DNA from: Amycolatopsis alba DSM 44262
GTDB lineage: Bacteria; Actinomycetota; Actinomycetes; Mycobacteriales; Pseudonocardiaceae
Direction: 5' to 3'
DNA: 64,000 nt
Assembly: GCF_000384215.1 (NCBI RefSeq)
Contig: NZ_KB913032.1
Span: 1,141,021-1,205,020 of the forward strand
Part shown: positions 3,960 to 12,729 of the stretch, piece after piece
How the letters are laid out: each line of letters starts with the position of its first letter
Numbering within the stretch: the first letter of the stretch is position 1
The notes under the pieces: model-generated
The model's input: only the letters and a program-made list of their open reading frames with translations
What the model was told of the DNA's origin: nothing
Databases searched by the model: none
Position numbers and translations under genes: made by a program

Positions 3960-6900
3960 TCACTGCGCGGCCACCCAGGCCTTCACCACGTCGTCCAGCA
4001 CCCGCAGCGGCAGGATCCCGTTGCTCAGCACGACCTCGTGGAAGCCCTTGATGTCGAAGCGGTCGCCGAGGGCGGCCTCGGCCTCGGCGCGGATCCGCTC
4101 GATCTCCAGCCGTCCCACCATGTACGACAGCGCCTGTCCAGGGAACGCGGCGTAGCGGTCGATCTCGGCCTCGATCTCCACCTTGGCCATCGGCGTGTTC
4201 TCGGCGAGGTAGTCGACGGCCTGCTGACGGCTCCAGCCGAGCGCGTGCATCCCGGTGTCGACCACCAGGCGACCGGCGCGCATCGAGTCCTGGGTGAGCA
4301 TGCCGAACTTCGTCAGATCGCTGGAGTACAGGCCCATCTCGTCGGCGAGGCGCTCCGCGTAGAGACCCCAGCCCTCGACGTAGGCGTTGACGTCGGCGTG
4401 ACCGCGCAGCATCGGCAGGCCCTTGAGCTTGTGCGCGATGCAGATCTGGAAGTGGTGCCCCGGAACGGCTTCGTGGAAGGCGATCGCCTCGCTCGTGTGC
4501 TTCGGGCGCAGCTCGGCCTCGTAGGTGTTCGCGTAGTAGGCGCCCGGCCGCGCACCATCGAGCGACGGCTCGATGTAGTACGCGAGCGTGCCACCGGGAG
4601 CCTCGGCCGGCGGGACCGGCTCGACCTGGCACTGCTCCTCGGGAATGGTCGAGAACCACTGCGGGGCAACGGCTTCGGCGCGGGCGATGGTGTCGCGCGC
4701 GGCTTGGAGCAGCTCGTCGCCGTCTCGCCAGCGAAGAGCCGGGTCGGTGCGGAGCCGCTCGAAGATCTCGCCGAGATCCTTGGTACCGAAGATCTTCTCG
4801 CCCAGTTCGCGGTACTGGTCGGCCAGCTTCGCGATCATGTCGAGGCCGGTGTCGTGCAGATCCTGAGCGGTGCGCCTGGTGGAGGTGTGCGCCCGGATCA
4901 GCGCGGCGTACTTTTCCTGCCCGCCGGGAAGCGCGCACAAGCCCGGCTCCTCCTCGGGCTTCGCCACGGGACGCAGCTCGGTGGCGAGGAAGTCGCGGTA
5001 CCGGACGTAAGCGGGGCGGACGACCTCGGCCAGCAGGCGGTCCCGTTCGGCTTCGTAGCCCTCCACGGAAACGGACGCGGTGAGCGCCAGCGGGTCACCC
5101 GCCTCGTCACCGAGATAGCGCTCCACGTAGGCGATTCCGCTTTCGACGAGGAAACCGGGCGGGACCAGCCCGTCGGCCGCCGCCGCGCGCTGGCGCACGA
5201 TGAGGGCGTCCAGGTAGCCGCCGATCCCGTCCAGCCGCCGCAGATAGCCCCGGACCCTTTCCTCGTCGTTCAGCGTCAGCACCGCGAGCTCGTTGAGCAG
5301 GAACAGCGCGGGCGAGGCGAGGCCGTCGCTGACCGAGAACTCGGAGGCACGGGCGTCGGTCGCGTCGACCATCGCCTCCGCCTGCTGGATCACGACCTCG
5401 CGGGTGACCGCCTCGACCGGGGAAAGACCTTCGGTGCCAAGGGCTTTGGCCCGCTCGGCGATGGCGACCGCCGACGCGCGCCGCTCGGCGGCGGCCTCCG
5501 CGCTCGGATCCGGCATGGCACCCTCGTCACCGGGAAGCCCGAGCAGCGAACGCCACAGCGGGAGCTCTTCGAACTTGAGTTCCATCAGCTCTTCGGCGAG
5601 GCCGTTCGGGGTGTCGCCGTGTCCGGCGACCCAGTCGCGGACCACCCCGTCGAGCACCGAAAGCGGCAGCGCGCCGCCACCGAGCACGACGTCGTGGAAG
5701 GCCTTGATGTCGAACCGGCTGCCCAGCGTCAGTTCGGCTTCCGCGCGGATGCGCTGGATCTCCAGCCTCCCCACCATGTACGACAGTGCCTGACCGGGGA
5801 AGGCGATGTACCGGTCCACTTCGGACTCGATCTCGACCAGCGCCATCGGCGTGTTCTCGGTGAGGAAGTCGATGGCCTGCCGACGGCTCCAGCCCAGCGC
5901 GTGCAGCCCGGTGTCGACGACCAGGCGACCGGCGCGCATCGAATCCATGGTCAGCATGCCGAGTTTCGCGACGTCGTCGGAGTACAGGCCCATCTCGTCG
6001 GCGAGGCGCTCGGTGTAGAGACCCCAGCCCTCGGCGTAGGCGTTGAAGTCGCCGATGCGGCGCAGCACCGGGAGCTCGCTGAGTCCCTGCGCGAGGCTCA
6101 GCTGGAAGTGGTGGCCGGGGATGGCCTCGTGGAACGCCGTCGCCTCGGCCGCGTGCCGGAACCGCTCCTCCGCCTTGTGGGTGTTGGCGAAGTAGATGCC
6201 CGGCCGGGAGCCGTCGACCGCGGGCCACATGTAGTACGCGGCGGGCGCGCCGGGCGCGGATTCGGCGGGGACCGGCTCGACCGTCCACGGCTGCGGCGGG
6301 ATCCGGCCGAACCAGTTCGGCGCCTCGGCTTCGGCCCTGGTGATGGCCGCGCGAGCGGAGTCGAGCAGCTCGTCGGCGCTGGACCAGCGCAGCGCCGGGT
6401 CGGTGCGGAGCTTGGTGAAGATCTCGGTGAGGTCGGTGGTGCCGAAGACGCGGGAGCCGTACTCGCGGTACTCGGCGGCGAGTTCCGCGATCACGTCGAG
6501 CCCGGTCTGGTGCAGCTCACGCGGGGTGCGGACGGTCGTGGTGTGCATTTCGGCGAGCAGGGCGTAGATGTGCTCGCCGTCGGGCAGCCAGCAGACGCCG
6601 GGTTTGTCCTCGGGGCGGCCGTGCGGCGCGATCTCGTTCGCGAGCACGTCGCGGTACTCGGCGATCGCGGGCCGGACGACGTCGCGCAGCAGAGCGGCGC
6701 GCCGGGTCTCGAAGTCGTCGTCGGGCGCGGGCTGGCGCAGCAGCGGATCGGCCGACGGCTCGGCGAGGTGCCGGTCGAGGTACGCGACGGTGGCGTCGAC
6801 GAGGTACGCGACCGGGAGCAGGCCACGGGCGACGCCGTCACGATGCCGCTGCGCGGCCTGCCGCAGATATTCCGGGATCGCGGCGATCCGCCCCAGGTGC

Positions 6901-7271
6901 GCCTCCGCCTGCGCGCCCGTCCCGACCGACATCATCGGCAGCACGGTGAGCACCTCGGCGGCGGGCGAGATGAACAGGTCACTCACGGTGAACTCGACGA
7001 ACCGCGAGTCCAGCAGCGCGATCCTCGCCCGCGCCGTCGCGATCAGGACGTCACGGGTGGTCTTCTCCTCCGCGCTCAGGCCCTCGGCGCCGAGTGCCTC
7101 GGCCCGCTCGGCGAAGTCGGCCAGCTTCGCGCGGAAAGCGTTTCCCGCCGCCTCGCTGAGATCGGTGAGCCCCGTCGACTCCGGACGGAAGCCCTGCAAA
7201 GCGGGCATGACCGGCTCGGCGTCGAAGAGGGCTTCGACGAACTCGTCGGCGAGGGCGGAGACTGCGCTCAT
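3960..7271 (-). CDS. Tandem double-domain DUF885 putative metallopeptidase
   Basis: A 1103-aa protein made of two full copies of the DUF885 domain, which normally forms a single protein of about 550-600 aa. Copy 1 covers about residues 1-560 with HEAIPGHH at about 379-386. Copy 2 covers about 575-1103 with HEAVPGHH at about 933-940. Each copy repeats the same order of landmarks, including AEGWGLYTERLADEMGLYS / VEGWGLYAERLADEMGLYS, RAGRLVVDTG.HALGWSR and YMVGRLEI. The HExxxGHH element is the expected zinc site of this gluzincin-like family of predicted carboxypeptidase-type enzymes. No signal peptide or membrane segment is seen, so it is probably cytoplasmic. Both copies keep the putative metal ligands. 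No frameshift lies between them, so this is a genuine fusion by tandem duplication. Confidence 0.88.
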   Translation of the reverse strand: MSAVSALADEFVEALFDAEPVMPALQGFRPESTGLTDLSEAAGNAFRAKLADFAERAEALGAEGLSAEEKTTRDVLIATARARIALLDSRFVEFTVSDLFISPAAEVLTVLPMMSVGTGAQAEAHLGRIAAIPEYLRQAAQRHRDGVARGLLPVAYLVDATVAYLDRHLAEPSADPLLRQPAPDDDFETRRAALLRDVVRPAIAEYRDVLANEIAPHGRPEDKPGVCWLPDGEHIYALLAEMHTTTVRTPRELHQTGLDVIAELAAEYREYGSRVFGTTDLTEIFTKLRTDPALRWSSADELLDSARAAITRAEAEAPNWFGRIPPQPWTVEPVPAESAPGAPAAYYMWPAVDGSRPGIYFANTHKAEERFRHAAEATAFHEAIPGHHFQLSLAQGLSELPVLRRIGDFNAYAEGWGLYTERLADEMGLYSDDVAKLGMLTMDSMRAGRLVVDTGLHALGWSRRQAIDFLTENTPMALVEIESEVDRYIAFPGQALSYMVGRLEIQRIRAEAELTLGSRFDIKAFHDVVLGGGALPLSVLDGVVRDWVAGHGDTPNGLAEELMELKFEELPLWRSLLGLPGDEGAMPDPSAEAAAERRASAVAIAERAKALGTEGLSPVEAVTREVVIQQAEAMVDATDARASEFSVSDGLASPALFLLNELAVLTLNDEERVRGYLRRLDGIGGYLDALIVRQRAAAADGLVPPGFLVESGIAYVERYLGDEAGDPLALTASVSVEGYEAERDRLLAEVVRPAYVRYRDFLATELRPVAKPEEEPGLCALPGGQEKYAALIRAHTSTRRTAQDLHDTGLDMIAKLADQYRELGEKIFGTKDLGEIFERLRTDPALRWRDGDELLQAARDTIARAEAVAPQWFSTIPEEQCQVEPVPPAEAPGGTLAYYIEPSLDGARPGAYYANTYEAELRPKHTSEAIAFHEAVPGHHFQICIAHKLKGLPMLRGHADVNAYVEGWGLYAERLADEMGLYSSDLTKFGMLTQDSMRAGRLVVDTGMHALGWSRQQAVDYLAENTPMAKVEIEAEIDRYAAFPGQALSYMVGRLEIERIRAEAEAALGDRFDIKGFHEVVLSNGILPLRVLDDVVKAWVAAQ

Positions 7272-7405
7272 GTGTTTCTTCCCCAGTGGTCGGTGGAGGC
7301 GGTATCCCCGACCCTAATGGAGAGCGCGACCTACCGAAGCCGGGATTTGCCGCACCGGACGGCCACTCCCGCGGCGCCGGGGGCGAGACGGTAGCGTTGC
7401 CGGTC

Positions 7406-8407
7406 GTGGCCGTGACCGATCCCGTGGACATCCGCCTGCTCGCCGCCCTCGCGGACCTGGGCAAGGCGGCCGTGCACGAACTCGCGGCCAAGGTGGGCAT
7501 GGATCCGCGTGAGGTCGCGTACCGTCTGGTCGCCCTCTCCGGGAGCGGGTTGCCGCTGCTCGTGGGCGTGGAAAGCGACCCGAACGGCTTACGGGCCGCC
7601 ATCGCGGGCTCGCCGCCCTCGTGGGCTCAGCAACCTCAGCAGCCCCCACAACCTCAGCAGCCTCAGCGACCGCCGGGGCAGTCCGGGCCGCACAACGTCC
7701 AGGGCACCCCTTCCGGGCCGTACACCGTCCAGGGGACGCCGTCGGGCCCGTACAACGTGCACGGCACGCCGTCGGGCCGCTACCCCGGTCCGCCGTCGGC
7801 CCCGGTGCGCCCGCCGATGGCGCCGCCCCAGCAGCCGCCGCCGCGTCCGCCCGCCCCGCAGCAGCAGTTCGCGCCCCCGATGGCGCCCGCGGACCCGGTG
7901 ATGAGCACCTGGGGCGTTCCGCAGACCGCGTCCTGGGCCCGCGGCGACGAGCAGCAGGCCGCCGCGCCCCGGCCGGTCCCGGAGGGCAAGAAGGGCAAGA
8001 CCGGCGACGTCATGGAGACCCAGGGCCTGGAGGGCGAGCAGCTCACCGTCCAGTTGCTCGAGGTCCAGGACCCGGCGGACTACCTGTTCAGCGCGGCCGG
8101 CTACTCCCTGGAGGCCGGGGAACGGTCGGTCGTGGTGCACACCGAGATCACCAACCGCGGGAACATCCCGTTCGTGTCGCTGCCGGACAATTACCTCGAA
8201 CTGCTCAGCGCGGACGGCAAGCCGATCGCGAAGGCGCCGGTCTCGCTGACCTCGCGGCCGCCGCACAAGATCGGCGTCCGGCCCGGCGAGACGCTCGGCG
8301 GGCACACCGTCTACGTGCTGCCGGACGCCACCCGCGTGGTCGCCGTGCGCTGGTCGCCGCGGCCGGAACCGGACGAACGCACGCTGACCTGGTCGATCGA
8401 CGACTGA
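7406..8407 (+). CDS. AsnC-type winged-helix protein with Pro/Gln-rich linker and C-terminal beta-sandwich
   Basis: About 333 aa in three parts. Residues 1-65 look like an AsnC/Lrp winged helix (DIRLLAALADLGKAAVHELAAKVGMDPREVAYRL). Residues about 70-200 are a disordered proline/glutamine-rich linker with three tandem 10-residue repeats of the type GPYNVQGTPS (30-bp repeats at 7685-7774). Residues about 215-333 form a predicted beta-sandwich (GEQLTVQLLEVQDPADYLF...ITNRGNIPFVSLPDNYLELL...GVRPGETLGGHTVYVLPD) similar in style to DUF4352 domains. The start is taken as GTG 7406 because it opens the HTH; GTG 7412 or TTG 7397 are possible. No signal peptide or membrane segment, so DNA binding in the cytoplasm is the simplest reading. 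Function unknown. Confidence 0.75.
   Translation: MAVTDPVDIRLLAALADLGKAAVHELAAKVGMDPREVAYRLVALSGSGLPLLVGVESDPNGLRAAIAGSPPSWAQQPQQPPQPQQPQRPPGQSGPHNVQGTPSGPYTVQGTPSGPYNVHGTPSGRYPGPPSAPVRPPMAPPQQPPPRPPAPQQQFAPPMAPADPVMSTWGVPQTASWARGDEQQAAAPRPVPEGKKGKTGDVMETQGLEGEQLTVQLLEVQDPADYLFSAAGYSLEAGERSVVVHTEITNRGNIPFVSLPDNYLELLSADGKPIAKAPVSLTSRPPHKIGVRPGETLGGHTVYVLPDATRVVAVRWSPRPEPDERTLTWSIDD
7685..7774 (+). repeat. Three tandem 30-bp coding repeats
   Basis: Three consecutive 30-bp units within the AsnC-type gene encode GPHNVQGTPS, GPYTVQGTPS and GPYNVHGTPS. Units differ by a few bases, so the array is a recent in-frame duplication that may vary in copy number between strains. It lies in the disordered linker. 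Confidence 0.8.
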
Positions 8408-8414
8408 GCGCGGT

Positions 8415-10802
8415 TCAGGTCGACCGCCGGACGACTTCTTCATGAAGTCTCCGGGCCTTCGGATCGGGAAACGTAACCAGCAGCGCAGCGGCTTCGGTCC
8501 AGTGCCTACGAGCTTCCACAGCTTCACCTGCCGCGTGCAGCGCATACGCGAGGTGGTTCAGTGAAAGTGCCAGCTGCCACCGATCGGCCTGCTCGCGATG
8601 CACGGCAACCGCCAGCCTGTGGAAATCGGCCGCTTCCGACGGCCGCCCCAACGCCATGTACGCCTCACCGGTGCAGTCCCAAGCCTGCGCTTCACGACCT
8701 CGGTCACCTTGCTGCCGCTGCAACACGGCCGCGCGTTGGGAGGCGGTAAGTGAGTCTTCGGGACGCCCCTGCAGCCGCAGAATACGACCGAGCTCGATCA
8801 ACCAATAGGCTTCTCGTGCGCGGCTCGACAGTTCACGGGCTTGGGAAAGTGCTTGCTCGATCGAATGCATCGCCCCGGCCAGATCACCTTGCTCACGCTG
8901 AATCATGGCGAGGAGATACAAGGCATGCCCTTCGCTGACCCGTATTCCCTGTGCCCGGTAGCTGTCCAATGCCCACAAGACCAGCCGCCTCGCCTCCTCC
9001 AACGCGTCGCTCTCCAGCGCGACCTGAGCGAGGTTCGCCGCCGCCAGCGCCTCCCAATAGACTTCGCCCAGCTCTCTCATCACGGTCATGCTGATTTCGT
9101 AGGCATGCCGGGCCGCGATGAAATCCCTCCGTTCGAAGCAGAGAAGACCCAGTCCGTTCTGAGCGAGGGCTTCGCCGAAACGATCGCCAAGCTCGTGGCA
9201 GACCTCGAGGGTACGACCGTAGTACTGTTCACTGTCCGCAAGCCGACGCGCTCGATAGCACACCATCGCCAGGCTCTCCAGCAATTGTGCCTCAGCCGCC
9301 CGGTCCCCGAGCTTTCGCGCCTCACGCAACCCGATCTCGGAAGTGACGAACCAGTCGTCCACGGGCATGACCGCGAGGTAGGTGCCGCGTAGGACCACGG
9401 CCAGCTGCCAGGCGATCCGGGACAGCCCCGCGGCAGCGGCGGCCTGGACAGCGGCTACCAGGTTGGCGCGCTCCGTCTCAAACCAACCGAGTGCGCTTTC
9501 CTGATCGGAAAACGTCAGGGGAACCACACTCACGTCGGCCGGGACGAGCTGGACCCGAGGTTCGGCTGGGTTGACCGCAACCTGCACGGAATCCGCGGTA
9601 TGCAGATACCAGTCCAAGATTCGACCCAGGACTTCGGCACGCTCCTCCGACGACTCTTCGTCCCGCGCCTGATCGGTCGCATAGGTACGCAAGAGGTCAT
9701 GGAACTGGTACCGATCAGACCCACTCTGTTCGACAAGGTGCACTCCGGCGAGAATGTCCAGCTGCTGTTTGGCCTGCCCACCACGAATGCCCGCCAATGC
9801 CGCTGCGGCCTCCGCGCTGAACTCCGGTCCGGGATGCAGACCCAGCAACCGGAACAGTCGAGCGGAATCCGCGGTCAAAGCTCGATACGACCAGGCGAAC
9901 GCGGTGCGAACCGCGTCGCTCTCCTCGTCGTCACCTGTGGACAGGGCATCCCAGAGTCCGGACTCGTCGCGCAGATCCTCGACCAATTCACCGAGCGGTA
10001 TCCGATGACGACGAACAGCGCGTTCCGCCGCGATGCGCAGAGCCAGGGGAAGCCGCGCGCACAACCGGGCCAGTTCGAAAAGTTCGACCTCGTTGTCCTC
10101 TGCCCGGTAGCCCGCGGTCACCGCACGCAACAAAGCGACGGCTTGCTCTGCGGTCAGGACATCGAGGCTCACCCGATGCGCACCATCGCGCACGAACAGC
10201 CCCGAAAGGCGGCTGCGGCTCGTCACCACCACCAAACAGCCGACCGTTCCGGGCAACAACGGGCGCACTTGCCCTACCGTCGCAGCGTTGTCAAGGAAAA
10301 CCAGCATGCGCCGGTCCGCCAGCAGGGACCGGAACATCGCGGCCATTTCATCGAGCTCGGACGGGATCGCGGTCGGCGGAACGTCGAGTGACCGCAGAAA
10401 TCGATCGAGTACCTGCGTTGCCGTGACCGGTAGCCCCGGATCATATCCACGCATGTTCGCGTACAGCTGCCCGTCCGGAAATCTGTCGCGCACCCGGTGC
10501 GCCCAATGCAGGGCCAAAGAGGTCTTGCCGACCCCTGCTGTACCGACGACCATTGAGACCGCGATGGCCTCACCATCCACGAGAACGCTGTCGAGACGTT
10601 CGAGCTCAGCGGCGCGATTCACGAATCCACGCACATCGCCTGGCAGCTGTCGCGGGACTCGACTCGAGGCCTGAGGCGTCCCGTGGAAGTGGACGTCACC
10701 GTGAATTGCGCCCGCCTGGACCACGTCGCTCGCTGTTCCGGACAGCTCCGAATGAGTACCCGCATTTCGCGGATACTCATCCTGCTCATCCGAACTCGTC
10801 AC
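8415..10802 (-). CDS. NB-ARC/TPR STAND ATPase with N-terminal RHIM-like (BASS-type) motif
   Basis: A 795-aa NLR-like signal-transduction ATPase. Residues 1-25 are disordered, and residues 26-41 read DVVQAGAIHGDVHFHG, a form I recognise as the RHIM-like amyloid signalling motif of actinobacterial NLR-like proteins. An NB-ARC ATPase follows: Walker A GTAGVGKTS (87-95, K93), Walker B RRMLVFLDNA, sensor TSRSRLSG, LPLALRIAAE, and an MHD-like FHD in YQFHDLLRTYA. From about residue 480 the protein is a TPR superhelix (repeats such as GEALAQNGLGLLCFERRDFIAARHAYE). It lacks the SARP DNA-binding domain of AfsR-like regulators. The GTG start overlaps the stop of the upstream gene (GTGA), so the three genes form one operon. 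GC content is visibly lower than in neighbouring genes. A role in triggered defence or cell death is inference. Confidence 0.85.
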   Translation of the reverse strand: MTSSDEQDEYPRNAGTHSELSGTASDVVQAGAIHGDVHFHGTPQASSRVPRQLPGDVRGFVNRAAELERLDSVLVDGEAIAVSMVVGTAGVGKTSLALHWAHRVRDRFPDGQLYANMRGYDPGLPVTATQVLDRFLRSLDVPPTAIPSELDEMAAMFRSLLADRRMLVFLDNAATVGQVRPLLPGTVGCLVVVTSRSRLSGLFVRDGAHRVSLDVLTAEQAVALLRAVTAGYRAEDNEVELFELARLCARLPLALRIAAERAVRRHRIPLGELVEDLRDESGLWDALSTGDDEESDAVRTAFAWSYRALTADSARLFRLLGLHPGPEFSAEAAAALAGIRGGQAKQQLDILAGVHLVEQSGSDRYQFHDLLRTYATDQARDEESSEERAEVLGRILDWYLHTADSVQVAVNPAEPRVQLVPADVSVVPLTFSDQESALGWFETERANLVAAVQAAAAAGLSRIAWQLAVVLRGTYLAVMPVDDWFVTSEIGLREARKLGDRAAEAQLLESLAMVCYRARRLADSEQYYGRTLEVCHELGDRFGEALAQNGLGLLCFERRDFIAARHAYEISMTVMRELGEVYWEALAAANLAQVALESDALEEARRLVLWALDSYRAQGIRVSEGHALYLLAMIQREQGDLAGAMHSIEQALSQARELSSRAREAYWLIELGRILRLQGRPEDSLTASQRAAVLQRQQGDRGREAQAWDCTGEAYMALGRPSEAADFHRLAVAVHREQADRWQLALSLNHLAYALHAAGEAVEARRHWTEAAALLVTFPDPKARRLHEEVVRRST
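10680..10727 (-). other. RHIM-like amyloid signalling motif (within STAND ATPase)
   Basis: These 48 bases encode DVVQAGAIHGDVHFHG, with the V-Q-x-G core and regularly spaced G-x-V/H positions typical of RHIM-related bacterial amyloid motifs. In other actinobacteria such motifs sit at the N terminus of an NLR and at an end of a separate effector. No second copy was seen in any other protein in this window. Confidence 0.6.
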
Positions 10803-11410
10803 ACCCGTCCCGGCGGTGGCAAATGCGCAATTTCCCGATCGAAGTAACTGATCAAGTCCTCGCCTTTTTCGTATATTTTCTCAATGAAGTCGTTACATTT
10901 CAGCATTGTCTCGACACCATCGTACCGGATTCCACCGTTCGGTGTTCCACTCTCTTCATAGAGAATTTCGTAGACCACATCCGGCCCCACCGTCAGCAGC
11001 TCAGGAAGCAAGCCGTCTTGTTCATATTCGACAACAGCTTCCGAGCCAACGACGCGAATTTTCTCTCCACTCTCAGCACTCATTTTCAGGGAATACAGTT
11101 CCCAGTGAACATATGGCGTGAGCGGCCGTTCAATGACTCGCAAACGAAACAGGTCGATGCCGCGATCAGCCGCTTCCCGGAAGAGTTTTTCGTGCGCAGG
11201 GCGCAGTTCAGCCGTCAGCCGGAGGGCTTCGTCCCAGTCACCGCGAGCGAACGCTTCCCATCGAGCGTGACCAGGTTGCCGGAAGTCTTGCCTCCGCTCA
11301 AGCTTCCACGACGACTGACTCGGCGAACGGTCGAATCTTTCATTGTAGTCGACATTATAGGCATCCTGCGTCAAACGAACTCCCGGCGCCGCACCGAGAA
11401 AATCAAGCAT
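10799..11410 (-). CDS. DUF6879-like protein
   Basis: A 203-aa soluble protein with the conserved run RVIERPLTPYVHWELYSLKM, followed by AESGEKIRVV and a C-terminal segment rich in aspartate and tyrosine. This matches the actinobacterial DUF6879 family as I remember it; the family number is from memory. Members often neighbour Scr1-type HTH, DUF397 or STAND genes, and no biochemical role is known to me. It overlaps the upstream 89-aa gene by 8 bases (ATGCTTGA) and the downstream STAND gene by 4 bases (GTGA), so translation is probably coupled. The gene is markedly AT-richer than its surroundings, especially at its 3' end near 10840-10920, which suggests horizontal acquisition. Confidence 0.7.
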   Translation of the reverse strand: MLDFLGAAPGVRLTQDAYNVDYNERFDRSPSQSSWKLERRQDFRQPGHARWEAFARGDWDEALRLTAELRPAHEKLFREAADRGIDLFRLRVIERPLTPYVHWELYSLKMSAESGEKIRVVGSEAVVEYEQDGLLPELLTVGPDVVYEILYEESGTPNGGIRYDGVETMLKCNDFIEKIYEKGEDLISYFDREIAHLPPPGRV

Positions 11411-11672
11411 CAGGAATGTCCGCCTTCGCCGCGATGAGCGTCGCCCTGGGGATTACAACCAGGTCCTCGTCACTCCCCAACGACACACCATTCGGCAGCC
11501 TTGCAGAGTATGCCGATGTCAAGTTTCGTCCGATCACGGCGACATCACCATTGTCCAGTTCCCAAATATCTGGGCAATTATTCCGGATGTCCGACTTGTC
11601 CAGTTCTTTCGCCGATTTGCCCAGCCGCCGCGCGAACGCGGCCGCAGGATCCGCTTCCCAAGGTCGAGTCAT
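11403..11672 (-). CDS. Small conserved-type protein, first gene of STAND operon (89 aa)
   Basis: An 89-aa protein with a basic/helical N terminus (MTRPWEADPAAAFARRLGKS) and a C-terminal beta-rich half with NCPDIWELDNGDVAVIGRNL and DLVVIPRATLIAAK. Start ATG 11672 is chosen because a strong GGAGG lies 6 bases upstream; an in-frame start at 11702 has none. I recall similar small proteins preceding DUF6879 genes in other actinomycetes, but I know no function. It is the promoter-proximal gene of a three-gene minus-strand operon with the DUF6879-like and STAND genes. A small sensor, chaperone or antidote for the downstream pair would fit its position, but that is speculation. Confidence 0.7.
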   Translation of the reverse strand: MTRPWEADPAAAFARRLGKSAKELDKSDIRNNCPDIWELDNGDVAVIGRNLTSAYSARLPNGVSLGSDEDLVVIPRATLIAAKADIPDA

Positions 11673-11802: not shown

Positions 11803-12729
11803 TCAGTTCTCGTCCTGCAGGATCCGCAATGCGTTCGCCAGATCGTCCGGGTACTCGGACTCGAACTCGACCCAGCGCCCGTCGGACGGATGCGCGAAAC
11901 CGAGCGTCTTGGCGTGCAGCCACTGCCGGGAAAGCCCGAGCTTCCGCGCGAGCACCGGGTCGGCGCCGTAGGTCAGGTCGCCGACGCACGGGTGCTTGAG
12001 CGCCGAGAAGTGCACGCGGATCTGGTGGGTGCGGCCGGTCTCCAGCTTGATCTTGGCCAGTGACGCGGCACGGAAGGCCTCGACGACCTCGTAATGCGTG
12101 ACGCTGGGCCGCCCGCCCTGGACGACGGCGAATTTGTAGTCGTGCCGGGGGTGCCGGTCGATGGGCGCGTCGATGGTGCCGCGCGTCGGATCGGGATGGC
12201 CCTGGACGATGGCGTGGTAGCCCTTGTCGACGGTGCGTTCCTTGAACGCCCGCTTCAGCACGGTGTACGCGTGCTCGCTCTTGGCCACGACCATCACGCC
12301 GGTGGTGCCGGCGTCCAGCCGGTGGACGACGCCCTGGCGTTCGGCCGCTCCCGAGGTCGCGATCCGCAGCCCGGCGGCGGCGAGCCCGCCGACGACGGTC
12401 GGCCCGGTCCAGCCGGGGCTCGGGTGCACGGCGACGCCGACCGGCTTCGAGATCACCACGATGTCGTCGTCGTCGTGCAGGATCTGCATGCCCTCGACAT
12501 GCTCCGCGACGACCTCGATGGCCGAGGCCGGGTCGGGCAGCGTCACTTCGAGCAGCCCGCCTGCGGACAGCCGGTCCGACTTCCCGGCGGGCCTGCCGTC
12601 GAGGAAGATCTCGCCGGATTCGGCCAGCTCCGCCACGACAGTGCGGGAGAGTCCCAGTAGTTTCGCCAGTCCCGCGTCGACGCGCATGCCGTCGAGCCCG
12701 TCGGGAACGGGCAACATCCGCGCGCTCAT
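11803..12729 (-). CDS. rluD: RluD-type 23S rRNA pseudouridine synthase
   Basis: A 308-aa protein with an N-terminal S4 RNA-binding domain (about residues 16-63) and a RluA-family catalytic domain. The active-site motif is [18 protein letters not shown], with the catalytic aspartate at D139. [13 protein letters not shown] and the C-terminal [11 protein letters not shown] complete the family signature. RluD-type enzymes convert uridines of the helix 69 loop of 23S rRNA to pseudouridine; exact specificity here is inferred. The ATG overlaps the lspA stop (ATGA, 12726-12729), the common actinobacterial lspA-rluD arrangement. A second ATG four codons in is possible. Confidence 0.92.

Follow-up and report, generated by a model that had tools for sequence, protein, structure and literature searches.

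A putative horizontally acquired receptor module in Amycolatopsis alba: an NLR-like ATPase with an N-terminal motif, a DUF6879 protein and an 89-residue partner

The window analysed here is a stretch of 64,000 nucleotides (nt) from Amycolatopsis alba DSM 44262 (contig NZ_KB913032.1, positions 1,141,021 to 1,205,020). Its positions 8415-11672 hold three overlapping minus-strand genes, hereafter the triad, which encode an 89-amino-acid (aa) protein, a DUF6879 protein and an NB-ARC/TPR STAND ATPase (NLR). Open reading frames (ORFs) and Pfam matches bear out this arrangement, which an earlier note had read from the DNA letters. The genes overlap by 8 and 4 nt, making co-transcription plausible. 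The first opens with an ATG behind a GGAGG ribosome-binding-like site; the ORF list begins 10 codons earlier, at a GTG. The second belongs to PF21806, scoring 110.2 bits against a cut-off of 23.9. The triad comprises the following features:

11403-11672, minus strand: small protein of 89 aa, encoded by the first triad gene (ORF, ATG start)
10799-11410, minus strand: DUF6879 protein with a predicted phospholipase-D-like (PLD-like) fold lacking conserved HKD residues (PF21806, E 9.4e-32)
8415-10802, minus strand: NB-ARC/TPR STAND ATPase (NLR-like), 795 aa (Pfam NB-ARC, E 1.6e-8; TPR_12, E 2.8e-18)
10680-10754, minus strand: putative N-terminal signalling motif, NLR residues 17-41, HSELSGTASDVVQAGAIHGDVHFHG (motif profile and triad comparison)
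9996-10607, minus strand: NB-ARC domain, NLR residues 66-269 (Pfam PF00931)
8418-9290, minus strand: TPR region, NLR residues ~505-795 (Pfam TPR_12, TPR_2)

The triad recurs within its own genome and beyond it. In the A. alba genome (9.8 Mb, a single contig), DUF6879 and the 89-aa protein each give three matches, and every one of these lies inside one of three triads, more than chance would suggest, although the NLR of the third triad lacks the motif described below. The two best relatives of the window NLR in this genome are the NLRs of the other triads, at 53% identity each, and the next five by score show 37-43%. A scan with the three 89-aa proteins returned 160 relatives, of which the best 80 were kept, giving 79 loci that represent the closest half. 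The DUF6879 gene follows the 89-aa gene in 70 of these 79 loci. Complete triads, with an NLR frame longer than 2 kb and DUF6879, account for 44/79, and a further 11/79 have a partial NLR or one without DUF6879. The three genes thus occur together widely, whereas the earlier note would have taken a lack of co-occurrence in other genomes as refutation.

The window NLR carries DVVQAGAIHGDVHFHG at residues 26-41 of its translation, exactly where the earlier note had placed this 16-residue stretch. The corresponding consensus, SGSAGDVVQARDVHGGVHFH, is present in all 44 NLRs of the complete triads; the pattern used to find it demands Q, A and G, and their invariance is informative only in that every one of the 44 complete NLRs fitted the pattern. 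When the 44 complete triads of other genomes are aligned, the columns of the motif show a conservation that the ungapped columns on both sides lack. Within the window, the motif profile, which includes the window sequence itself, retrieves the NLR at E 4.4e-13, and the next match has E 2.7. The second A. alba triad retains the motif as well (SEVVQARDVHGDIHLHG). Upstream of the second triad (L005:321-3304), we also observed an NB-ARC gene with a regulator-like N-terminus, as judged by eye, that is apparently split over two frames.

The label RHIM-like, which the earlier note had given to this motif, was not supported by the comparisons made, which relied on single published peptides and not on a BASS3 profile. 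After Q-A, 39 of 50 relatives have Arg and the other 11 have Gly, which is also the residue of the window NLR. In addition, two published BASS3-type peptides compared with the NLR-side and effector-side motif profiles gave -0.4 to 0.8 bits or no hit, when shuffled sequences reach 8 to 16 bits.

The NLR motif recurs in separate, effector-like proteins, a relation that agrees with the earlier note's reading and that profile searches supported. When all frames of the 79 loci were searched with the NLR-side profile, 12 ORFs outside the NLR set (all ORFs here being stop to stop) were found at E <= 0.01: another NLR (L097), an NLR remnant (L058) and ten small proteins with the motif at or near their C-terminus. 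Three Nocardia loci (L034, L039, L042) encode a Bell-like protein some 60 nt downstream of the NLR, five further loci (L067, L069, L076, L080, L102) encode one divergently, within 400 nt upstream, and small proteins with two transmembrane segments (two-TM) lie 0.5 to 1 kb upstream in L071 and L081. An eleventh motif-bearing small protein (L085, E 0.64) resembles that of L071. Altogether, eight Bell-like and three two-TM ORFs occupy 11 of the 79 loci, namely nine of the 44 complete triads and two loci with an incomplete NLR. With the NLR-side profile, the 1.49 Mb of near-triad sequence contains ten such loci at E <= 0.01, as against at least 9 ORFs no longer than 300 aa in the ~229 Mb of 27 triad genomes, a comparison in which the thresholds are not identical. 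We use the name Bell-like from the published description and by resemblance, as these proteins gave no convincing Pfam or PADLOC match. Nine Bell-like proteins align along their length. The Bell-like profile contains the motif, so NLRs match it weakly too. In its distribution the motif resembles an amyloid-signalling motif.

No motif-bearing protein was detected beside the window NLR by the motif profile within the 64 kb. The earlier note's remark that no effector is adjacent therefore holds for the window but not for the unit at large, given the near-triad proteins just described and the candidates found elsewhere in the genome. With none at the locus, any effector would need to work in trans. 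The search in trans covered 27 of the 35 genomes whose complete triad has no effector close by, together with three where one is present; it scored the best <=150 first-look candidates each time, so further motif proteins are possible. With the effector-side profile, an ORF of <320 aa bearing the motif was found in 12 of the 27 genomes; these small ORFs are candidates, and at least one (L193) looks non-coding. Bell-like proteins were recognized in 5/27 genomes among the fetched loci (L170, L171, L172, L181, L189; Bell profile E <=2e-12). Two longer frames, counted stop to stop, were observed to end in the motif without belonging to a Pfam family (L170:1501-3072, 745 aa, which includes a Bell-like stretch, and L176:145-1581, 479 aa).

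The search of the rest of the A. alba genome, which the earlier note had proposed, likewise yielded candidates: at least six places match the NLR-side profile at E < 0.05, two of which are triad NLRs. A TPR protein with a helix-turn-helix (HTH) and a P-loop, both recognized by eye, matches at E 5e-6, and a NACHT protein at E 1.7e-4. A Bell-like protein matches at E 0.02; it is encoded 5 Mb from the window triad and is 47% identical to the three Nocardia Bell-like proteins that adjoin triads. It is the sole Bell-like protein among the matches listed, and was itself in the query.

Three places in this genome also deserve description in their own right. A protein of ~295 aa starts with the motif (GFTVQARDIEGGVHFHF, E 1e-7; L121:3207-4103, C1:8252706-8253602, minus strand), and neither it nor the adjoining 417-aa frame belongs to a Pfam family. 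At L122:3743-11455 (C1:6154242-6161954), the Bell-like protein (115 aa, with the motif), a NACHT NLR, a 280-aa protein and a TPR protein adjoin one another; the NACHT NLR has YQIGNAENVHI near its N-terminus, the 280-aa protein ends in TAIQVGHLHGGLHNG, and the TPR protein has TTVLQAGSIAGGVHIHP. To the eye, the stretches of the NACHT NLR and of the 280-aa protein resemble the motif, yet on the profiles they score no better than shuffles. Finally, an NB-ARC protein with IGTAIQAGLVHGDLHVTG (profile E 0.18; L124:2866-10001, C1:9719500-9729500) is flanked by a CHAT C-terminus (E 3.2e-12) and by a SEFIR-like frame under the cut-off (E 0.005).

The 89-aa protein has no family match in Pfam, NCBIfam or PADLOC. 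DUF6879 has no function assigned in Pfam and does not occur by name in the literature searched. Across the class, DUF6879 was found in 16 of 79 genomes (A. alba included), at 34 places, and 27 of these were examined, the others being the three A. alba triads and four unfetched places. In 19 of the 27 loci an XRE-type gene lies downstream of DUF6879 on the same strand, and one locus (L213) is a triad with the motif. A gene is called XRE-type here when its product is similar to one HTH_31/DUF5753 protein, from L056; all four such regulators scanned with Pfam, that protein among them, are HTH_31/DUF5753. In 11 of the 27 loci a small protein was extracted upstream of DUF6879, and by hhalign these proteins are distant homologues of the 89-aa family, with a probability of 97.5 and E 7.8e-12 over 57 columns, where two unrelated controls gave 0.3. 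They were picked by a five-residue pattern like the CPDIW of the 89-aa protein, which favours a match, and 10 of the 11 belong to the 19 XRE-type loci. The 89-aa protein and DUF6879 thus look like a portable pair, which often stands before a transcription regulator and in the triad before an NLR. In L056:10001-15493, we noted two 89-aa-DUF6879 pairs without an NLR that flank HTH_31/DUF5753, DUF397 and HATPase_c_2 genes.

A closer union is seen in Kitasatospora, where seven protein clusters are DUF6879-motif-NB-ARC/TPR fusions. The motif is kept at the junction in 7/7, and evidently tolerates an internal position. In the one case with DNA examined, the 89-aa gene lies upstream. The fusion search reports only proteins that have short exact words in common with the query, and fusions outside Kitasatospora are possible. 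The fusion makes it probable that DUF6879 and the NLR act as parts of a single complex.

The fold predicted for DUF6879 invites a different view of the pair, which we regard as rather improbable: that the 89-aa protein and DUF6879 form a toxin-antitoxin-like or nuclease effector pair, and that the NLR merely controls them. The structural neighbours of DUF6879 include the PLD-fold nucleases Nuc, NucT and BfiI, and in 19 of the 79 loci (one ended by its contig) the small protein is followed by DUF6879 but by no NLR. However, the HxKxxxxD signature of PLD enzymes is not conserved: any H.K occurs in 9 of 62 sequences and H.K....[DE] in 2 of 62, as counted on the sequences without mapping onto the model. 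The Kitasatospora fusion, moreover, is easier to reconcile with DUF6879 as an input component than with its release as a toxin.

The main rival to a signalling receptor is a regulatory role. The nearest NCBIfam models of the NLR are AfsR, HaaT and FxSxx_TPR, all under their cut-offs, with the AfsR NB-ARC/TPR model (NF053617) at E 1.8e-112 and 377 bits against a cut-off of 1430. Accordingly, the NLR could be an AfsR-like regulator, a signalling ATPase that acts on transcription or development; the 89-aa protein and DUF6879 would be its sensing partners and the motif a docking peptide, and no cell death would take place. The frequent position of DUF6879 before an XRE-type gene would agree with this, as would the PLD-like fold that TrmB-type regulator domains have in common with DUF6879. 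Nevertheless, no Pfam match to a SARP or DNA-binding domain was found at the NLR N-terminus, and none of the three triad proteins has a DNA-binding domain above the Pfam cut-off (HTH_20 in the NLR reaches 18.5 bits against 27). The motif is also common to Bell-like and two-TM small proteins, and the one HTH-like case observed is the A. alba TPR protein mentioned above. We consider the regulatory role unlikely, though still worth weighing seriously.

The surroundings of the triad point to its arrival from elsewhere. Its boundary genes, as defined by the empty-site comparison, are:

7331-8404, plus strand: left boundary gene of the insertion, encoding an HTH-containing protein
11803-12678, minus strand: right boundary gene, encoding an RluD-like pseudouridine synthase (PF00849, E 4.1e-31)

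These two genes adjoin each other, with a gap of <=543 bp, in 19 of 22 same-genus genomes, and the triad has no match in any of the 22 flank-to-flank stretches. The 89-aa family is present in two of 24 same-genus genomes, A. alba included. Because of this empty site and patchy distribution, the triad is most simply explained by horizontal acquisition, which is supported by these observations and had been suggested in the earlier note from the low guanine-plus-cytosine (GC) content. The GC content is indeed low at this locus (triad 61.6%, DUF6879 54.2%, window 68.9%), but low GC is no rule for the unit: over 37 related loci it averages 1.3 points under the flanks and is lower in 25. Further to the left, at 3960-7271 on the minus strand, the window holds one 1103-aa frame with two tandem DUF885 stretches.

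Alternatively, the A. alba triad could be a partly broken import in which the receptor was kept, the effector was lost and no present function remains. In keeping with this, there is no adjacent effector, one of the three A. alba copies is without the motif, and the unit is patchy and acquired; 11 of the 79 loci have incomplete NLR frames or no DUF6879, for which assembly errors are a possible cause. All three genes are open, however, two divergent copies in this genome retain the motif, and motif-bearing candidates exist in trans. This explanation therefore seems to us quite improbable.

We slightly favour a horizontally acquired receptor module as the explanation, one in which the 89-aa protein and DUF6879 provide the input and a motif-signalling NLR the output. 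The 89-aa protein and the pseudo-PLD fold of DUF6879 would form an input module feeding the NB-ARC/TPR STAND ATPase; sensing would proceed through the TPRs and/or DUF6879, and the pair would sense or license. The ATPase would then oligomerise and cluster its N-terminal motif, and the clustered motif would recruit proteins with the same motif. The recruitment would probably rely on cross-beta templating, which has been proposed for BASS/Bell pairs (PMC7889193), signalosomes reportedly defined by Dyrka et al. in 2020. The recruited proteins, chiefly Bell-like or two-TM small ones, would act on the membrane, and the cell would be arrested or die. In some relatives the effector would be encoded near the triad, and in A. 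alba it would be supplied in trans. Gene linkage, motif sharing, candidate effectors in cis and in trans, the natural fusion, the empty site and the predicted fold are observed here, while the sensing, oligomerisation, amyloid templating, membrane action, killing and role in defense are inferred.

Several observations weigh against this receptor module. In 24 of the 79 loci no NLR follows the small protein, in at least one (L036) through a contig end, and in 35 of the 44 complete triads no motif-bearing small ORF was found in the available flanks, up to 10 kb. The NLR of the third A. alba triad is without a motif-type N-terminus. PADLOC returned one generic match, to TPR, and a second that is both weak and unlikely, and no named BASS family was matched, since the two BASS3-type peptides score under their own best shuffles. 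The Bell-like gene of A. alba precedes a NACHT NLR of its own (C1:6154242), and its pairing with the window triad is conjectural. The N-terminus of that NACHT NLR scores on neither motif profile, so profile similarity need not mean pairing.

More tentatively, and with less confidence than we place in the receptor module itself, there may be a bacterial NLR network. A number of acquired receptors would each have a separate input module, in the triad the 89-aa protein and a pseudo-PLD sensor that XRE-type regulators also use, and would rely on one short self-templating motif for signalling in trans to a few common membrane executors, much as eukaryotic sensors share helpers. The unit opens to experiment whether bacterial receptors bearing the motif can cooperate with distantly encoded effectors. 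DUF6879, as half of a portable input module placed before a regulator or an NLR and fused to the NLR in one genus, would offer a clue to how bacterial NLRs may be activated.

Among known systems, members of the PLD superfamily (Nuc, NucT, TrmB/TrmBL2, FAM83B) differ from DUF6879 in that the latter has no conserved H-x-K. The BASS/Bell amyloid NLR signalosomes (PMC7889193, PMC8086366, PMC9815663) are close in architecture: as published (PMC7889193), they have one motif that opens the NLR and also closes a small Bell protein, at its C-terminus. The triad NLR has such an N-terminal motif, which in some relatives is repeated at the C-terminus of an adjoining small Bell-like protein. In contrast, the triad receptor is coupled to the 89-aa protein and DUF6879, and in 35 of the 44 complete triads, as in the window, no motif-bearing small protein was found nearby; the comparison with named BASS motifs covers the two BASS3-type peptides, which did not match. 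XRE-DUF397 pairs are treated in PMC6262351 and PMC10364602. The XRE-type loci described above have the same DUF6879 family and, where extracted, a homologous small upstream protein, whereas their output is an HTH_31/DUF5753 regulator and that of the triad an NB-ARC/TPR ATPase with a putative signalling motif. AfsR-type SARP regulators have NB-ARC and TPR in common with the triad NLR, which carries the motif in place of the SARP/DNA-binding domain. Like bNACHT25 and the bacterial NACHT defense proteins (PMC12169576), the triad NLR is an NLR-related STAND ATPase, but one built on NB-ARC instead of NACHT.

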